A stretch of DNA of 47,801 nt from Bermanella sp. Its GTDB lineage: Bacteria > Pseudomonadota > Gammaproteobacteria > Pseudomonadales > Oceanobacteraceae. The notes under the pieces were generated by a model. It saw only the letters and a program-made list of their open reading frames with translations. It did no database searches and was not told the DNA's origin. The stretch covers positions 1-47,801 of the forward strand of contig JAPYOO010000006.1 in NCBI GenBank assembly GCA_029938135.1, given 5' to 3'. The position numbers were made by a program, and so were the translations under genes. Positions 9,433-20,092 of this stretch are shown piece by piece. The stretch's first letter is position 1, and each line of letters starts with the position of its first letter.

Positions 9433-12192
9433 TTATTTATCCTCATATCTTTGATGACGGAAAAACACACCGCTGTCGCCGAAGTGCGACGCGTTAAAGG
9501 CAGAAGTTAGGCGAATGCTGCCCACCTTTACGGCACTGTCACGACGGGCCTTAATGTACTTTTTGTTAAAGTAAGGGATCAATGAAGTCTTGATAGCCAT
9601 GTCGGTGGCATAAATGTCATACAAAACAGTACCCGCTGGCAAGGTTAACAAATCCTGGCGGAAATCATGGGCCGAATTGGCAAATTGACTTTTCACCTCG
9701 TTGCTGGGCACAAAGTAAAGCTGAGTAGGCGCCTTGACGCTGGCCTCCTCTTGTCCGTCCTGGGTCACCTTAGCCATTTTTTCCGTCATCATGCGGGTGG
9801 GCTTAGAGGTCACTAGGGAAAATAAGGCGGTGGTGCCCAAAGTCTCGTTGGCTTCAGGAGATACATACTGAGACAGCTCATTAGCGAAGAAGTCATGGTT
9901 ATCCCCTTGGCCCGATAAAGTATACAAAGCCGAGACATTGCGTGAGTTTTTACCGTCCACAAACGCCTTCCAAGCAAGTCCTGGGGCGAAGCCACGATCG
10001 GATGGTGCACCGGTGACGGATAAACGCATTAGGCCACAATCCGATCCCTTAAAGGTTCCGGTGAAAGGATGATTAGCTTCGGCTTCGAAGGCGACTTTGG
10101 CCATCACACCGTGGGCGTGTATGGGCTTCTCATAACCCACCGGGGTAACGTCGTCTTTCAAATTCACCTTAGTCCACAATATACTGTTAATCAGACCACC
10201 TATGTTCACATCTTGCAGTGCGGGTAATTCATCGGCCGAGTATTGAGTGCGCAAGGCACCATTTACCCATAGGTGCTCCTGCTTGGAACAGGCCGACCAG
10301 CTCTTGTAATCATCTGTCATATTTAGGCCCCAGGGCTTAAACGCGTTATCCACACCTACCAGACTATTGCTAAGTTGTGGGAAGTGACGCTCAAGCACGT
10401 CCACCATCGTCATGTTTTCAACCCAGTCTAAACCCGCCTGAGTGTAAACCTCAGCGGTGTAATCCTTAGTATAAAAACGGTCGGTGATTAAACGGCGCGA
10501 GGCGTTAAGGATGAAAACCTGAAAGGCAGTCTCACCAAAGGCAAAACCATCTGGGCGCACGGTCTCGGCCAGCTGGCCAATCAGAGCATCAATCTTTTCG
10601 ATATCGTTATCATAGATGCGCTTGAGGGTGGCCAGAGTCACAGGATCTTCTGTGAGGTCTTCAAACTTAGTGATGGGGTTCAGTTGTATTTGACGGCGGT
10701 ACTCGTTGTACCTAGGAATACCACGCTCACGGTCACGAAGAATATCGATGGTGGCCAGATCGATGTCACCTACCAGTGGAATCGACAGGTTACGTAAAAA
10801 CTGTGGGTAGTTGTTTAGTGTCAACGCACCTGGGTGCGTAATACCAAATGAATACCACAGGCGCTCGCCACCTTCGTCGTCGAGGATGTTTTCGGCATCA
10901 CCATTACGGGTGTCTTCGATATTAATGGAGTTGCTGACGATGTTAGAACCTATGTCGTACACGTCCACGGTGTCACGCAACAAGGGGTGCATCCGGTACA
11001 CCTCAACAAATTCTTCGGTAAGGGTATAGGGAGTACCTGCGTTGTAGGATTCACGTGAACCTACTAGGCCACCCACACCGTGTTCTAGGAAGGAGGCGCT
11101 GTCCAGTATACGGCTCAATTCAGGGTCTAATCCCAGTACGCGCTTTATGAAGGAATCGGTTTTGGCCAAGTCGTCGGCAATTACTTCAATGCCACCTTGA
11201 ATGTTGTCACGGCCCTCACGGGTACCCAGTAGCCCCCACCAGTTGGCTTCCATGGAAGTCTTGAGTACAGGGTTAGCGAGCAGAGCCGGCGTCCATTCAA
11301 CAGTGTGAATCTTTGCCATAAGGGCGGCGTTAACCAGACGTGCCTTGTCATAAATCCATTGATCGGTTTGATCCGGGTTATTGGTTTTGATCATGTCGGC
11401 GATGGCATTGTGCTCAAGCGTAAACAGCTGGTGCATCATGCTTAAACCCAGCCACCAGTTGTCGTTGAAACCGGTTACCGGTATGCCCGACATAAATTCA
11501 GTGGGTAAAGTGCCATCATCTTCAAGCGCTAGCTTACCGTCCACAAAGGAACGTACGAGGTTGTTCGTGGCGGCGTTGCTACCATATAGTTGTGAGCCAT
11601 CCCACCAGTGGGTGACCTGGTTTTGATAGCTGGGTGGCAGGTGCGCATCTTCCGCGCCGCGACTGGGGTCGGGTGAGGTGCGCTGCACATACAGGCTGCC
11701 TGTACCCAGTACGTCTCCTTCGGGTAAGGGCACTTCGATAGGATTTTCTGAAATATTGGGGCCGTGACTAACCCAGTCGTGCACCATGAACTGAATCCAG
11801 GCGGCGGCGATGAAGTTGATGCTAGTAGCTGGCTTAAATTCATCACGGGCCATGAGCGCATTACTGACTTCTCTGGGGTTTGGATCCATTAAGGTCTGGG
11901 CATGGAGTTCGGAATCCACTGCACTTAATTCCACGTTGCGACCAAAACGCATGAGAGCAGATCCTTCCGCCGGGTTTTCCAGAATATTACAGGTACCGTC
12001 TTCAGTACGAGTAGTGAGACTGCGCTCATCACATATTATCTTGGCGTTGTGATTGTCATAATTTTCAAGATCAAATAAATTGTCTTCAAATAATTTTTCA
12101 CGCTCTAAACCTATTAACACCACGGCGGCAAGTACGCCGAGCGTGCCAAGTTTAGTAAGCGCAGGCCAAGTGACCCAGACTGATCCACTCAT
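9433..12192 (-). CDS. Alpha-dioxygenase-like heme peroxidase with catalase-like C-terminal region
   Basis: A large (919-aa) enzyme of the animal heme peroxidase/cyclooxygenase superfamily, closest in motifs to plant fatty-acid alpha-dioxygenase, which makes 2-hydroperoxy fatty acids. In order: an N-terminal hydrophobic helix (about residues 10-27), distal His138 in AAWIQFMVHDW, WWDGSQLYGS, LFTLEHNAIADM, LMAKIHTVEWT, then VYRMHPL with Tyr399 and proximal His402 in the same Y-x-x-H spacing as alpha-dioxygenase. The last 280 or so residues are extra. They hold IHAHGVMAKVAFE (His692), RLSVTGAPSDRGFAPG and a DNHDFFA segment, resembling the distal-side motifs of catalase; no catalase-type proximal R-x-x-x-Y was seen. 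The start at 12192 is preferred over the ATG at 12198 because AAGGA lies 6 bases before the former and touches the latter. The gene is divergent from a MalT-like regulator. Its base composition looks less AT-rich than the neighbours'. Confidence 0.8.
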   Translation of the reverse strand: MSGSVWVTWPALTKLGTLGVLAAVVLIGLEREKLFEDNLFDLENYDNHNAKIICDERSLTTRTEDGTCNILENPAEGSALMRFGRNVELSAVDSELHAQTLMDPNPREVSNALMARDEFKPATSINFIAAAWIQFMVHDWVSHGPNISENPIEVPLPEGDVLGTGSLYVQRTSPDPSRGAEDAHLPPSYQNQVTHWWDGSQLYGSNAATNNLVRSFVDGKLALEDDGTLPTEFMSGIPVTGFNDNWWLGLSMMHQLFTLEHNAIADMIKTNNPDQTDQWIYDKARLVNAALMAKIHTVEWTPALLANPVLKTSMEANWWGLLGTREGRDNIQGGIEVIADDLAKTDSFIKRVLGLDPELSRILDSASFLEHGVGGLVGSRESYNAGTPYTLTEEFVEVYRMHPLLRDTVDVYDIGSNIVSNSINIEDTRNGDAENILDDEGGERLWYSFGITHPGALTLNNYPQFLRNLSIPLVGDIDLATIDILRDRERGIPRYNEYRRQIQLNPITKFEDLTEDPVTLATLKRIYDNDIEKIDALIGQLAETVRPDGFAFGETAFQVFILNASRRLITDRFYTKDYTAEVYTQAGLDWVENMTMVDVLERHFPQLSNSLVGVDNAFKPWGLNMTDDYKSWSACSKQEHLWVNGALRTQYSADELPALQDVNIGGLINSILWTKVNLKDDVTPVGYEKPIHAHGVMAKVAFEAEANHPFTGTFKGSDCGLMRLSVTGAPSDRGFAPGLAWKAFVDGKNSRNVSALYTLSGQGDNHDFFANELSQYVSPEANETLGTTALFSLVTSKPTRMMTEKMAKVTQDGQEEASVKAPTQLYFVPSNEVKSQFANSAHDFRQDLLTLPAGTVLYDIYATDMAIKTSLIPYFNKKYIKARRDSAVKVGSIRLTSAFNASHFGDSGVFFRHQRYEDK

Positions 12193-12485
12193 ACTCATTC
12201 CTTATCATTATTATTGGTTTATTTACTGCCATTTTTTCAGGCTGCAAGACTAAAGACAGAAATTAATTATGGGAACCCTCCTCAAGGAGGGGCTGGAAAA
12301 GTTAGCGATAAGGACTACTCAAATATCACAGTGTGGCGGATTGTGCCTTGATAATATTTTTCAGGCAGTTTAAAACGTGCGGGCTATAAAAATAATACTA
12401 AAAAGATTGTATGTACTGAATAATAATTAACAAAAAATAAAAATAATAATTATTGAATCGATAGTACCAGCAGAGAGGGGACTGC
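12193..12485. promoter_or_regulatory. Divergent promoter region between peroxidase and MalT-like regulator
   Basis: About 290 AT-rich bases separate two divergent starts and must hold both promoters; no clear sigma-70 pair was fixed. The most notable element is a GC-rich palindrome at 12276-12291: CCCTCC, TCAA, GGAGGG. It resembles the GGA-rich boxes bound by MalT-type regulators and is the best operator candidate. GAGAGGGG precedes the regulator ATG. Confidence 0.45.
12276..12291. repeat. GC-rich palindrome, possible MalT-type operator
   Basis: CCCTCC (12276-12281) and GGAGGG (12286-12291) form a perfect 6-bp inverted repeat with a TCAA centre, in an otherwise AT-rich spacer. MalT boxes contain a GGA(G/T)GA core, so the resemblance is suggestive only. 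There is no T-tract, which argues against a terminator. Confidence 0.4.
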
Positions 12486-15669: not shown

Positions 15670-16179
15670 TTAACGCAATACTGAAACGTCTTCAGCCTGT
15701 AGACCTTTCTGACCGTCTACTACACAAAATTTAACGGCTTGGCCTTCACTTAGACTTCTATGACCGCTGCCACGAATAGAACGGAAGTGAACAAAAACGT
15801 CGTCGCCGTTATCACGAGTCACAAAACCAAAACCTTTTTTCACGTTAAACCATTTAACCGTACCGCGCTCACGACCATCATCAACATCGGTCTCAACCAA
15901 AGTACCGGTACCACGACGCTTAAATTTCGCTTGGTTCAGAATAGAAGAGCCAATAAATAAGATCACAAAACCCACCAAAACGGCTGCAAAGTAAGCAGTG
16001 ATTGCTGATGGTTGGCTAAGAAACATACTCAATGGGCTAATTTGGGTGTCTGCACTTACTGCTGTGAAGCTGAATATTTTATTGCCACCCGCCACTGCAA
16101 ATAGGGTAGCCATTAAAACTGGAGTGGGGATAGCCAATAGCAAACAAACTAAAATCTTCTTAAACAATGTATTTTGCAT
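15670..16179 (-). CDS. Membrane-anchored cold-shock-domain protein
   Basis: The 169-aa product joins two membrane helices (about residues 8-30 and 58-82) to a complete cold-shock domain (about 106-169). RNP1 is KGFGFV and RNP2 is VFVHF; the surrounding GTVKWFN and GLQAEDV are canonical CspA-type sequence. Cold-shock domains bind single-stranded nucleic acid as RNA chaperones. Here a basic linker (KFKRRG) after helix 2 suggests the domain faces the cytoplasm beside the membrane. Free Csp proteins are about 70 aa, so the N-terminal half is an added anchor. It is divergent from slyX (115 bases between starts) and ends in a strong terminator. Confidence 0.88.
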
Positions 16180-16576: not shown

Positions 16577-18403
16577 CTACTGTTTACTTAACCTGCGTCT
16601 TGCCACTAGTAATAACACAAGTGTTAGTAATATGGGCAAGACAATAATATTAAGCACCTTTAACCACCCTTCTAAAACTTCAATATCTTTATTCAGTTCA
16701 TGACGCACTTCACGCAGTGCCTTGCGAATATGTAGCTTTTGTTGCTGAAAGTCTGCCAATGCTTCTTCCTGAGCAGGACTTAAGGTCAGACTGTCCTTAG
16801 CCCGTTGCTGCTCTAATTGCGCTAATTGCTGCTCGGTGCCCTGTAACTGCTGCTGTAATAACTCTTCATGTTCTTGGTAAGCACTTTGAGCTTGTTGCTG
16901 AATATCTTGCACCACAGTAAAAGGGCGCGTGAAACGACCACGACTGCGAATATTGATTAAATCTGAACTGCCTAATAATTGTTCAACCATATTATTTACA
17001 AATGCACCGTTGTCAGCCCAGGGCTGCTTAATACGCTGCCCAAAAAAGCTTTGTACTTGCACCCATAAACTATCGGTTAAAACATCTGTGTCAGCCACCA
17101 CCACTAAGTTAAGGTTTTGGCTTTCATTAATATGAGAGGCAGCGTAAACACTGCTTGCTGGCTTTTGAGTAAACGCACTTTGCACCGAACCACTTAAGCG
17201 AGCCGCTAACACATACGACTCGCCACTAGGATTGAAGGCTTGCATCAACTCTGACGGATCGCTGACTGCATTATATTCTGACAAGGGAATAGCTTGGGCC
17301 TGATAGCTGCTACTCACTAACGCATCAAAACGAACACCCTCAACCTGTTTATGATGCAATACTCCGGCACTGGCAAAATTCACCATTTCTAATTCTGAGG
17401 TGGCAACCTCTTGGCGATTCAAGCTATCTGCCTGTATGCCCAGCAAGCCTAAATGTCTAATGGGCGGCTGATTCTCCCCCATAGAAACCGTTAGCGCGTA
17501 TTCATCATCAGTGAGCACTTGACCAGCCTGGTACTCAACACCCCATTGAGAGAACAATCTCATCAACAGGTTCTCGCTTTTTGGCGATGCCGCAGCAGGC
17601 TTATTTTCCACTTTAGGATCAATAAAGACTAAAAGCTTGCCGCCTTTCATTACAAATTGATCAAGTTCATATAACGTATTTTCGTCCTGTATTGAGGGTT
17701 GCACTAAAATTAACAGCTCAATTTCTTGATCTAAATCTTCTAGTTTTTCATCCACCCAGCGTACATCAAACATTTCATCTAGCTGATCATAAATGGCCCA
17801 CGGTGGTGTATTGCCACCACTTTGCATGTCAAAGCCGCCACGAATATCAAGTTTGGACATTAATCCTACAACAGGTGTGCGTGACTGACCCAAGCGATAA
17901 ATCAATTCACTTATTTGATACTCTAAAAACGCTTCTTTATCGGGCTGTAAAAAAGCAATAACACCTTCAGAACCCGCTGCGTTTTGAGCACTTAGACCAA
18001 AATACACATCAGTCCCATTACCAATGGGCACGGCTTGCAACCCAAATTCAGCGGCCAAGTCTTCATCTTCTGAAAACGGCTCCGGATCAACAACCGTTAC
18101 ACTTAACTTACCCTTAGATAGCAAGACATATTCCGCTAATAGCTCCTTAACCGATAATGCATAACTGCGCAAAGCCGTTAAATCGTGACTGGCCTTATCA
18201 CTAAAAAATAGTGTTATGAACACCTCTTGATCCAAATTTTTTACTATATTTTGCGTGCCTTGTGAAAAGCTGTAAATTTTTTGTTGGGTTAAATCCAGCC
18301 TCAGGTCACTTAACCAAGTCTGACTGGCAAGGGTTAACACTGCAAAACATAGAAAAGCCAAAAGTGCTTTAAAAAACGTCGATTTTTTATATAAATTTTT
18401 CAT
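16577..18403 (-). CDS. GldG-like auxiliary protein of an ABC transporter
   Basis: The 608-aa protein has one N-terminal membrane helix (about 13-32), a large extracytoplasmic ABC-auxiliary (GldG-type) domain starting with LDLTQQKIYSFSQGTQNIV, a Gln/Glu-rich coiled coil (about 505-570) and a C-terminal helix (about 578-600) followed by RRRLSKQ. It is the last gene of a three-gene operon, 19 bases after the permease. In Bacteroidetes GldF/GldG belong to the gliding machinery, but proteobacterial relatives have no assigned substrate. No gliding genes are nearby. Confidence 0.85.
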   Translation of the reverse strand: MKNLYKKSTFFKALLAFLCFAVLTLASQTWLSDLRLDLTQQKIYSFSQGTQNIVKNLDQEVFITLFFSDKASHDLTALRSYALSVKELLAEYVLLSKGKLSVTVVDPEPFSEDEDLAAEFGLQAVPIGNGTDVYFGLSAQNAAGSEGVIAFLQPDKEAFLEYQISELIYRLGQSRTPVVGLMSKLDIRGGFDMQSGGNTPPWAIYDQLDEMFDVRWVDEKLEDLDQEIELLILVQPSIQDENTLYELDQFVMKGGKLLVFIDPKVENKPAAASPKSENLLMRLFSQWGVEYQAGQVLTDDEYALTVSMGENQPPIRHLGLLGIQADSLNRQEVATSELEMVNFASAGVLHHKQVEGVRFDALVSSSYQAQAIPLSEYNAVSDPSELMQAFNPSGESYVLAARLSGSVQSAFTQKPASSVYAASHINESQNLNLVVVADTDVLTDSLWVQVQSFFGQRIKQPWADNGAFVNNMVEQLLGSSDLINIRSRGRFTRPFTVVQDIQQQAQSAYQEHEELLQQQLQGTEQQLAQLEQQRAKDSLTLSPAQEEALADFQQQKLHIRKALREVRHELNKDIEVLEGWLKVLNIIVLPILLTLVLLLVARRRLSKQ

Positions 18404-18422
18404 TATTATTTCCCAATGGCCA

Positions 18423-19160
18423 TTACTGGGCTTGATTACGTTTTAACATGAGCCCGGTAAGATACAACCATAGGGCAATTTGCATACAAAAATACAATAC
18501 ATCGCGAACATCCAATACGCCGCGGGCAATAGCATCAAAGCGAATTAAAAAACTTAAGCCCACTATAAAGTCCAATAACCATTGCGGTGCCCAAAAGAAG
18601 GCCTCCAATACCATGGGCACACCACTCACCATGAATATAAAGCTCACCACAACCGTTAATAAAAATGCCACTATCTGGTTTTTAGTGCACGCCGACATGC
18701 AGCTGCCAATGGCCAAGAACCCACCCGCCATAAGCCAACTTCCCACGTAACCCGCCACAATTACGCCATGATCAGGATCCCCTAAGTAGCTCACAGTTAT
18801 CCAGATAGGAAACGTTAATAATAATGCTAGGGCCGCAAACAACCAAGCCGCCAAAAATTTCCCCAACACCACATTTCCATGACCTATTGGCAACGTCATC
18901 AATAACTCTATAGTGCCCAGCTGGCGCTCAGACGACCACAATCCCATGGCAATGGCTGGCATAAAAAATAAATACAGCCATGGGTGGAAGTTAAAAAAAG
19001 CACTCAAATCCGCTTGGCCTTTTTCAAAGAAGTTCCCTAAATAAAAACTGAAAACACCTGCTAACACTAAAAACATAACTATAAATACATAGGCCACGGG
19101 GGTGGCAAAATAACTATAAAGCTGTCGGCGCATTACAATATTGATCATTTCTAAGCTCAT
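18423..19160 (-). CDS. ABC-2 type permease (GldF-like)
   Basis: A 245-aa integral membrane protein with about six helices. The start, in which MRRQLYSYFATPVAYVFIVM can be read, is typical of the GldF/NosY ABC-2 family. It also carries the family's SSERQLGTIELLMTLP amphipathic segment, which contacts the ATPase. It overlaps the upstream ATPase gene by 4 bases (19157-19160), so the two are translationally coupled. The transported substrate is unknown. Confidence 0.88.
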   Translation of the reverse strand: MSLEMINIVMRRQLYSYFATPVAYVFIVMFLVLAGVFSFYLGNFFEKGQADLSAFFNFHPWLYLFFMPAIAMGLWSSERQLGTIELLMTLPIGHGNVVLGKFLAAWLFAALALLLTFPIWITVSYLGDPDHGVIVAGYVGSWLMAGGFLAIGSCMSACTKNQIVAFLLTVVVSFIFMVSGVPMVLEAFFWAPQWLLDFIVGLSFLIRFDAIARGVLDVRDVLYFCMQIALWLYLTGLMLKRNQAQ

Positions 19161-20092
19161 GCTCGGGCCTTCTGTTTAGCGCTGGTCACTTGGCGGAATA
19201 CGTCTTCTAATCGACCTTTTTCTACATGTAAATTTTCCACCTGCCACGCCTTTTTATCCAACCAGCGAACCACTTGAGGCAGTAACATGGCGCCCTGGCG
19301 TGGAAACAACGTAAATAGGCGTTCGTTAACTTGCTCAACGGCCTCAATGCCGTCTAATGCTTGCAGCATTGCTTGTGCATCAGGTATTTCATCCACTAAG
19401 TTTAGGCTGATGGCATTATGGTAACGGCTTTGTTTTTCAAGCTCAGAAGGTTTGCCATCTAAAATGAGTTTTCCTTTATCGATAATTAAGGCCCGCGAAC
19501 ACACGGCACTCACTTCTTCTAATATATGGGTAGAAATAATGACTATTTTATCTTTCGCTAAGCCTTTAATGAGTTCTCTTACTTGGTGTTTTTGATTGGG
19601 GTCGAGTCCGTCGGTAGGTTCATCTAGTATCAATACTTTAGGGTCGTGCATAATGGCTTGAGCGATGCCCACTCTACGCACAAAGCCTTTTGAAAGGGTA
19701 TCAATGACTTGTCCCATTACAGACTGTAGTTGAACTTGTTCTATCACAGCCTGCAGGCGCTGTTCTTTTTGTGGCCCTTTAAAGCCCCGTACTTGGGCAA
19801 TAAAATCTAGAAAAGCCCTTACCGTCATTTCGCCGTAAGCAGGCGCGCCTTCGGGTAGATAACCCATTAATTGTTGTACACTGTGTGTCTCTTTAGTCAC
19901 ATCAAAGCCACACACCGATACACAACCCTCACTTGGCGCTAAAAAACCGCTAATAATTTTCATTGTGGTGGATTTACCCGCACCATTGGGTCCTAAAAAT
20001 CCCAGTACTTCGCCCTCGGCTACGCTGAAATTTAAATTTTCCACCGCGAAAACATCGTCAAAGTGTTTACAAAGGTTTTGCACGTGAATCAT
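19157..20092 (-). CDS. ABC transporter ATP-binding protein (GldA-like)
   Basis: The 311-aa ATPase shows Walker A GPNGAGKST, a Q-loop region MGYLPEGAPAYGEMTV, the signature LSKGFVRRVGIAQA (the LSKG form usual in ABC-2 exporters rather than LSGGQ), Walker B VLILDEPTDGLD and the switch His in IISTHILEE. The last 80 residues or so form the C-terminal extension seen in GldA/NatA proteins. It is the first gene of the ATPase-permease-GldG operon, divergent from plsB. Confidence 0.9.
   Translation of the reverse strand: MIHVQNLCKHFDDVFAVENLNFSVAEGEVLGFLGPNGAGKSTTMKIISGFLAPSEGCVSVCGFDVTKETHSVQQLMGYLPEGAPAYGEMTVRAFLDFIAQVRGFKGPQKEQRLQAVIEQVQLQSVMGQVIDTLSKGFVRRVGIAQAIMHDPKVLILDEPTDGLDPNQKHQVRELIKGLAKDKIVIISTHILEEVSAVCSRALIIDKGKLILDGKPSELEKQSRYHNAISLNLVDEIPDAQAMLQALDGIEAVEQVNERLFTLFPRQGAMLLPQVVRWLDKKAWQVENLHVEKGRLEDVFRQVTSAKQKARA

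Follow-up and report, generated by a model that had tools for sequence, protein, structure and literature searches.

One gene of a Bermanella sp. genome joins a fatty-acid alpha-dioxygenase (alpha-DOX) to a C-terminal domain that is predicted to adopt a divergent catalase fold, in which distal-side residues of catalase are kept and the chain ends before the proximal Tyr. The gene lies on the minus strand of the window (the whole analyzed stretch of 47,801 nucleotides, contig JAPYOO010000006.1), and its contig, C473, belongs to a 4.73-Mb assembly of 687 contigs. Feature coordinates are collected in Table 1. The stop codon occupies positions 9433-9435 and the ATG stands at 12192; use of a second in-frame ATG at 12198 gives an alternative product of 921 residues. 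Over the gene, frame 1 of the opposite (plus) strand is full of stops. The open reading frame is a real gene rather than a chance frame, because the product matches An_peroxidase (PF03098) with an expectation value (E) of 2.2e-105 across residues 62-608 and because 63 relatives carrying both domains (long forms) were found among the best 80 of 120 related loci in the genome collection. All motifs singled out by the first-pass annotation of the sequence are present in the protein where it had placed them: QFMVHDW at 134-140 (His138), YRMH with Tyr399 and His402, IHAHGVMAKVAFE from residue 691, RLSVTGAPSDRGFA from 723 and DNHDFFA from 764.

Assignment of the N-terminal (N) domain to the alpha-DOX family, which the annotation had based on His138 and the Tyr399-x-x-His402 pair, is upheld by Pfam, by matches to plant alpha-DOX structures and by alignment with an enzyme of Calothrix. 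The top PDB matches are plant fatty-acid alpha-oxidases (E from 3.7e-111, for 4kvj, to 1.4e-105), and the row after them reaches only 5.7e-30; relatives made up of the alpha-DOX alone (short forms) stop near the equivalent of residue 622. A 584-residue Calothrix alpha-DOX is very probably the assayed enzyme CalDOX, because passages of PMC8720084 list 15 residue positions for CalDOX and it matches at every one of them. The N domain is 47% identical to it over 577 aligned pairs (43% by BLAST), and 12 of the 15 CalDOX positions listed in those passages are identical in the fusion protein. None of six alpha-DOX residues (His138, His296, Thr301, Tyr399, His402 and Arg567) varies among the 34 aligned long forms; three of them, His296, Thr301 and Arg567, are of the same types as His311, Thr316 and Arg559, described as the carboxylate/alpha-carbon site of OsaDOX (PMC8720084). 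Alignment thus identifies the N domain, by family, as a fatty-acid alpha-dioxygenase with the catalytic residues and a predicted His/Thr/Arg carboxylate site.

Evidence for the catalase fold of the C-terminal (C) domain comes primarily from a structure model. AlphaFold2 modeling of residues 615-919 with an alignment of 48 sequences gave a mean predicted local distance difference test score (pLDDT) of 82.3 and a predicted template modeling score (pTM) of 0.85, with weak stretches at residues 758-760 (pLDDT under 50), at 780-796 and in the last five residues (about 55). When the model was compared with 998 chains by VIA-align, 144 scored at Z 8 or more and a single other chain fell between 5 and 8. 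To judge by title or gene name, the 50 listed rows (Z 10.4-9.3) consist of catalases and catalase-related proteins; the exception, chanoclavine synthase, is taken to have the catalase fold as well. The first row, tied with those below it, is 3e4y, a 33-kDa catalase-related protein from Mycobacterium avium subsp. paratuberculosis (Z 10.4, root-mean-square deviation 3.9, 193 residues); similar to the C domain in its small size, it shares 14% identity with it and presumably has the Tyr ligand that the C domain lacks. The resemblance to the distal side of catalase suspected in the first-pass annotation is borne out by this fold and by an IHAHG motif that falls on the distal-His site, and a fold unlike catalase, considered there as the contrary outcome of structure prediction, is not what the model displays.

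The set used to score conservation comprised 80 distinct C domains, three of which are stand-alone proteins with 31-45% identity to the fusion protein. His692, Arg723, Ser725, Gln762 and Phe769 are invariant throughout this set. In profile-profile alignment His692 falls on the catalase distal His, Arg723 and Ser725 on R-F-S, whose arginine we take to be of the heme-propionate type, and PGLAxK on RGFAvK. Absence of the proximal Tyr motif, already remarked on in the annotation, was confirmed by profile alignment and extends to the entire set: no C domain among the 80 has any residue past position 919 that could form the R-x-x-x-Y ligand helix, and the chain end is therefore not a truncation of one genome. 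By profile alignment the chain ends some 17 residues short of the proximal Tyr (counted on L123). The VIA superposition places the tail differently, pairing the last model residue with, for example, human residue 355 and HPII residue 412, which presumably lie three before the proximal Tyr; the Tyr itself is absent in both placements. A Tyr ligand within the C-terminal tail was also considered and rejected, Tyr916 being variable. The strongest candidate for a substitute heme ligand is His913, near which the catalase F-x-P segment aligns, a segment that presumably touches the proximal heme face. Neither L031 nor the paralogue L060, to which L104 is identical, has kept His913. A second long-form copy in the Bermanella genome itself (L002, G000 contig 292), cut by the contig end, has L031 and L104 as near relatives. 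The invariant distal residues speak for a retained cofactor, and the loss of Tyr speaks against its being an ordinary one.

The names of long-form records include Pseudomonas, Alcanivorax, Oleispira, Marinobacter, Thalassolituus, Moraxellaceae and Teredinibacter. The ranking from which the best 80 loci were kept favors full-length relatives, and the 17 loci that are not long forms carry alpha-DOX only. Among 55 close genomes, the Bermanella genome included, 22 contained a match, which in 19 reached into the C domain. In wider samples the C domain is rare: with this genome included in each count, it occurs in 2 of 185 genomes from the class and in 5 of 398 from the phylum. A tree of 52 rows unites its 28 long forms in a single clade (100/100), and in the domain tree an uncultured Bermanella supplies the closest relative. 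A 105-residue frame at L021:11305-11619, about 2.6 kb beyond the long-form gene, matches the C domain weakly (E 0.00098) and may be what is left of a second, decayed copy.

Pairing of alpha-DOX with a catalase-like domain is also seen outside the long forms. A tblastn search of plasmids returned three records with a C domain. On plasmid pCAL6303.01 of Calothrix sp. PCC 6303, a stand-alone C domain of 303 residues is encoded at 55098-56009, about 1.5 kb downstream of the gene for the 584-residue alpha-DOX, with a small hypothetical gene and a transposase gene between them and genes for a glucose-methanol-choline (GMC) oxidoreductase and a patatin following. Plasmid proteins of R. phaseoli and Phyllobacterium sp. 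(942 and 949 residues) are PF00199-PF03098 fusions of opposite domain order, with Pfam Catalase scores of 28.1 and 26.5 bits against a cut-off of 25, and a third such fusion, in the gammaproteobacterial genome G116, scores 30.4 bits. The second domain of all of these is of alpha-DOX type. They hold the same two kinds of domain in one chain as the Bermanella protein; unlike it, they have the catalase-like domain first and keep both the distal His and the proximal RxxxY. The opposite-order fusions do not fall within the C-fusion clade, which makes at least two origins likely; a single origin of the N-terminal catalase fusions was not adopted, as the tree leaves G116 on an unsettled long branch. 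An Acaryochloris peroxidase of 938 residues was rejected as a further fusion, its N-terminal part being a weak tetratricopeptide repeat (TPR) match and not catalase. No separate catalase-like gene was found beside short alpha-DOX genes in 17 loci of 7-14 kb (profile search, E 0.01). Stand-alone C domains include a protein with a signal-like N terminus in genome G235 (contig 12, L115:9748-10650) and one on a P. veronii plasmid, where it follows a pyridine-nucleotide-disulphide oxidoreductase gene (L122:4548-6897). Recurrence in separate settings, as C-terminal fusion, as Calothrix gene run and as opposite-order fusions, suggests a partnership of the two domains.

The 2-hydroperoxy acid formed by alpha-DOX is described as decarboxylating spontaneously to the aldehyde one carbon shorter (Cn-1), with 2-hydroxy acid also arising (PMC8720084, in part). 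A fused catalase-fold domain would be well placed to take over this hydroperoxide. The proposal that we favor, tentatively and slightly short of an even call, is a two-domain enzyme of fatty-acid oxidation whose C domain takes over the 2-hydroperoxide and whose expression is controlled by the adjoining regulator. The N domain would oxygenate a free fatty acid with O2 at its alpha carbon, yielding the (R)-2-hydroperoxy acid; the C domain, with heme or another cofactor in the old catalase pocket, would accept this product and may reduce, dehydrate or cleave it before spontaneous decarboxylation to the Cn-1 aldehyde. A bolder version, which we consider unlikely, makes the C domain a hemoprotein with His913 in place of Tyr as axial ligand and a dedicated 2-hydroperoxy-acid enzyme (dehydratase, reductase or lyase), within a bacterial alpha-oxidation that paired alpha-DOX and catalase folds repeatedly and in both orders.

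Several results weigh against the favored proposal. A profile search of the C region against catalase families, as the first-pass annotation had advised, did not return them: Pfam Catalase (PF00199) matches none of 48 C-domain members, and a PDB profile search gave no catalase, its sole rows, lumazine synthase (E 0.0015) and cystatin (0.89), being taken as chance because they are at odds with the fold rows of the model. Pfam has no family for residues 615-919 and no match for the three stand-alone homologues, and six unrelated families match weakly (E 0.09-0.18) in 1-3 of the 48 members each. Foldseek with the C-domain model found no PDB match at E 0.001 or better, the top two, sub-significant rows being coral allene oxide synthase (AOS)-lipoxygenase (E 0.019) and coral AOS (cAOS; E 0.054). 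Profile-profile scores, obtained for ten pairs each with a reversed control and with small catalase sets (14, 5 and 2 sequences), were marginal, the forward score being better than the control in six pairs and worse in four. Forward/reversed P values with alignment A3 were 0.045/0.007 for heme catalases, 0.046/0.14 for the y4iL type, 0.012/0.13 for the srpA type, 0.00032/0.04 for all catalase sets together and 0.00037/0.13 for y4iL plus srpA; with alignment A1 they were, in the same order, 0.3/0.0094, 0.36/0.091, 0.068/0.11, 0.064/0.0021 and 0.0031/0.083. With forward ahead in 6 of 10, sequence alone is thus not proof of kinship with catalases, and the model carries most of the weight. The distal Asn has no clear counterpart, Gln762 (80/80) and Asn765 (76/80) lying nearby where register and model are uncertain, and the C domain has neither the proximal Tyr nor the heme Arg that follows it, so that heme binding there is putative. 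Substrate-channel residues V18, R22 and T304 of CalDOX (the other 3 of the 15 listed in PMC8720084) differ, as aligned, in the fusion protein. A full-length model was poor (pLDDT 62, pTM 0.58) and was set aside; it gives no domain packing. Finally, nothing in the entire genome of G235 (99% complete), which has a stand-alone C domain, matches alpha-DOX, and at L122 no alpha-DOX lies within about 6 kb, so the C domain can exist independent of alpha-DOX.

The loss of the proximal-Tyr helix throughout the 80 C domains, stand-alone ones included, since nothing follows position 919, would also be expected of a heme-free pseudo-catalase that acts as scaffold, oligomerisation surface, membrane dock or fatty-acid/hydroperoxide cup without chemistry of its own. 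This is possible, though we regard it as rather doubtful, as invariance of His692, Arg723, Ser725, Gln762 and Phe769 is unexpected for a mere scaffold. The catalase fold of the C domain, together with the priming of alpha-DOX by H2O2 noted in a review (PMC9305512, in part), is consistent with a role in peroxide tone, i.e., in supplying or removing peroxide, by which the alpha-DOX Tyr radical is primed and, at excess, harmed. The Tyr ligand typical of H2O2-dismutating catalases is missing, however, and we find such a role quite improbable. The PF03098 family is broad, and we know of no assay of a long form, so that the N domain might in practice be some other An_peroxidase-family heme oxygenase or peroxidase; with the six alpha-DOX residues invariant, PDB matches to plant alpha-DOX (1.4e-105 or better) ahead of the row that follows them (5.7e-30), and the identity to the Calothrix enzyme noted above, this appears very improbable.

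Plant alpha-DOX (4kvj/4hhr) and CalDOX resemble the whole N domain in the catalytic Tyr, both heme His and the His/Thr/Arg site, and differ in being without the C domain. CalDOX expresses in E. coli (PMC8720084); in that study N- and C-terminal extensions were trimmed from the alignment before the tree was built, and its main text does not contain the word "catalase". In Nostoc punctiforme a linoleate 10S-dioxygenase is accompanied by a separate catalase-related 10S-hydroperoxide lyase (PMC13049297; PMC9579011, both in part). As in the fusion, a bacterial cyclooxygenase (COX)-superfamily dioxygenase works with a catalase-related protein; unlike the fusion, the two are encoded by separate genes and the dioxygenase has another specificity. 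The Nostoc lyase has a complete catalase heme site. The Nostoc pair is a nearer precedent than the coral fusion to which the first-pass annotation had likened the gene. That likeness holds for the fold and for the union of a dioxygenase and a catalase-fold domain in one chain, as in coral AOS-8R-lipoxygenase (3dy5; cAOS alone, 1u5u). Domain order, type of dioxygenase and Tyr ligand differ, the catalase-related domain being N-terminal of a lipoxygenase in corals and here C-terminal of a heme dioxygenase and without the Tyr ligand, so the comparison is an analogy only. Among cAOS residues T66, H67, N137, Y353 and R360 (PMC5617202, in part), T66, Y353 and R360 have no equivalents in the 80 C domains; the residue before the distal His, T66 in cAOS, is I, M, L or V in all 80, and the chain ends before the Y353 and R360 positions.

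Divergent from the fusion gene, and beginning 287 bases beyond its outer ATG, is a gene for a LuxR/MalT-like regulator. Homologues of it (30-52% identity, some partial) occur at 54 of the 63 long-form loci and at none of the 17 short-form loci; in 48 of the 54 the homologue ends within 1 kb upstream of the listed start of the long-form gene, and stricter clustering retains the regulator at 50 of 63. The fusion gene is probably controlled by this regulator. No common operon emerged, as no neighbor cluster except the regulator was present in more than 18 of the 63 long-form loci. In G116, an AAA gene with weak MalT-type TPR matches stands just ahead of the fusion. Neighbors of other alpha-DOX genes look like parts of a bacterial alpha-oxidation route: patatin and thiamine pyrophosphate (TPP) enzyme genes in Phyllobacterium (L165); on a Streptomyces plasmid, a flavin adenine dinucleotide (FAD)-linked oxidase gene together with others annotated as TPP decarboxylase (mdlC) and P450; and genes for RoxA-like cytochromes in Rhizobium and Qingshengfaniella. 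The R. phaseoli opposite-order fusion is followed by one such RoxA-like gene, and fatty-acid dioxygenases occur among the RoxA-like proteins.

Further observations concern plasmids, the Bermanella genome and the remainder of the window. Plasmid alpha-DOX genes (L167, L165, L166) are accompanied by genes matched to or annotated as TPP enzyme, FAD-linked oxidase, patatin, P450 or alpha/beta-hydrolase. Contig 201 of the Bermanella genome (G000, L162:4116-9326) has two RoxA-like cytochrome c genes with a catalase-like gene of the y4iL type between them. Within the window, two hydrophobic segments followed by a cold-shock domain (15670-16179) were read by eye as a membrane-anchored cold-shock protein, and three genes at 16577-20092, likewise read by eye, resemble a Gld-type ATP-binding cassette (ABC) export system (auxiliary protein, permease and ATPase). 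The possible membrane anchor of the fusion protein corresponds to a Kyte-Doolittle 19-residue maximum of 2.04, from residue 11.

Table 1. Features of the fusion gene, its regulator and the opposite-order fusions. Positions refer to the window unless a locus is named.
Feature	Position	Strand	Basis
Fusion gene	9433..12192	-	Uninterrupted open reading frame, 919 residues plus stop
Hydrophobic segment near the N terminus (about residues 8-30), a possible membrane anchor	12103..12171	-	Kyte-Doolittle only
Alpha-dioxygenase domain, residues 46-622	10327..12057	-	Pfam, PDB matches, end of short relatives
Distal heme His138 (CalDOX H131)	11779..11781	-	Alignment with Calothrix enzyme
His296, carboxylate-binding type (CalDOX H290)	11305..11307	-	Alignment; role from PMC8720084 (in part)
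Thr301 (CalDOX T295)	11290..11292	-	Alignment; role from PMC8720084 (in part)
Catalytic Tyr399 (Tyr358 in Calothrix enzyme)	10996..10998	-	Alignment
Proximal heme His402 (CalDOX H361)	10987..10989	-	Alignment
Arg567, carboxylate-binding type (CalDOX R529)	10492..10494	-	Alignment
Predicted catalase-fold C domain, residues 623-919	9436..10326	-	AlphaFold2 model and structure comparison
His692, catalase distal-His site	10117..10119	-	Alignment; 80/80 distinct C domains
Arg723, catalase R-F-S arginine site	10024..10026	-	Alignment; 80/80
Gln762, near catalase distal Asn site	9907..9909	-	80/80; placed by eye, weak model region
His913, C-terminal FF[KR]HQRxED motif, candidate alternative proximal ligand	9454..9456	-	78/79 scored
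LuxR/MalT-like ATPase regulator, 872 residues	12486..15104	+	Pfam (GerE E 3.6e-11)
Opposite-order fusions	L164:3921-6749, L165:3924-6773, L159:2324-5620		Distal His and proximal RxxxY both kept

A COX-superfamily dioxygenase with a catalase-related lyase (Nostoc) and a catalase-related domain fused to a lipoxygenase (corals) are already known. Apparently new are the joining to alpha-DOX, the placement at the C terminus, a Tyr-less catalase-fold family that no Pfam entry matches and its occurrence next to the probable CalDOX gene; no description of an alpha-DOX-catalase fusion was found in the literature searched, most subscription journals lying outside it. Alpha-DOX enzymes have been studied as aldehyde-making catalysts whose hydroperoxide is said to decarboxylate by itself (PMC8720084, in part). 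A conserved partner domain, whether fused, encoded beside the probable CalDOX or joined in the opposite order, suggests that bacteria control the hydroperoxide step, and a catalase fold without the Tyr ligand would help to tell which elements of the catalase heme site are truly required.

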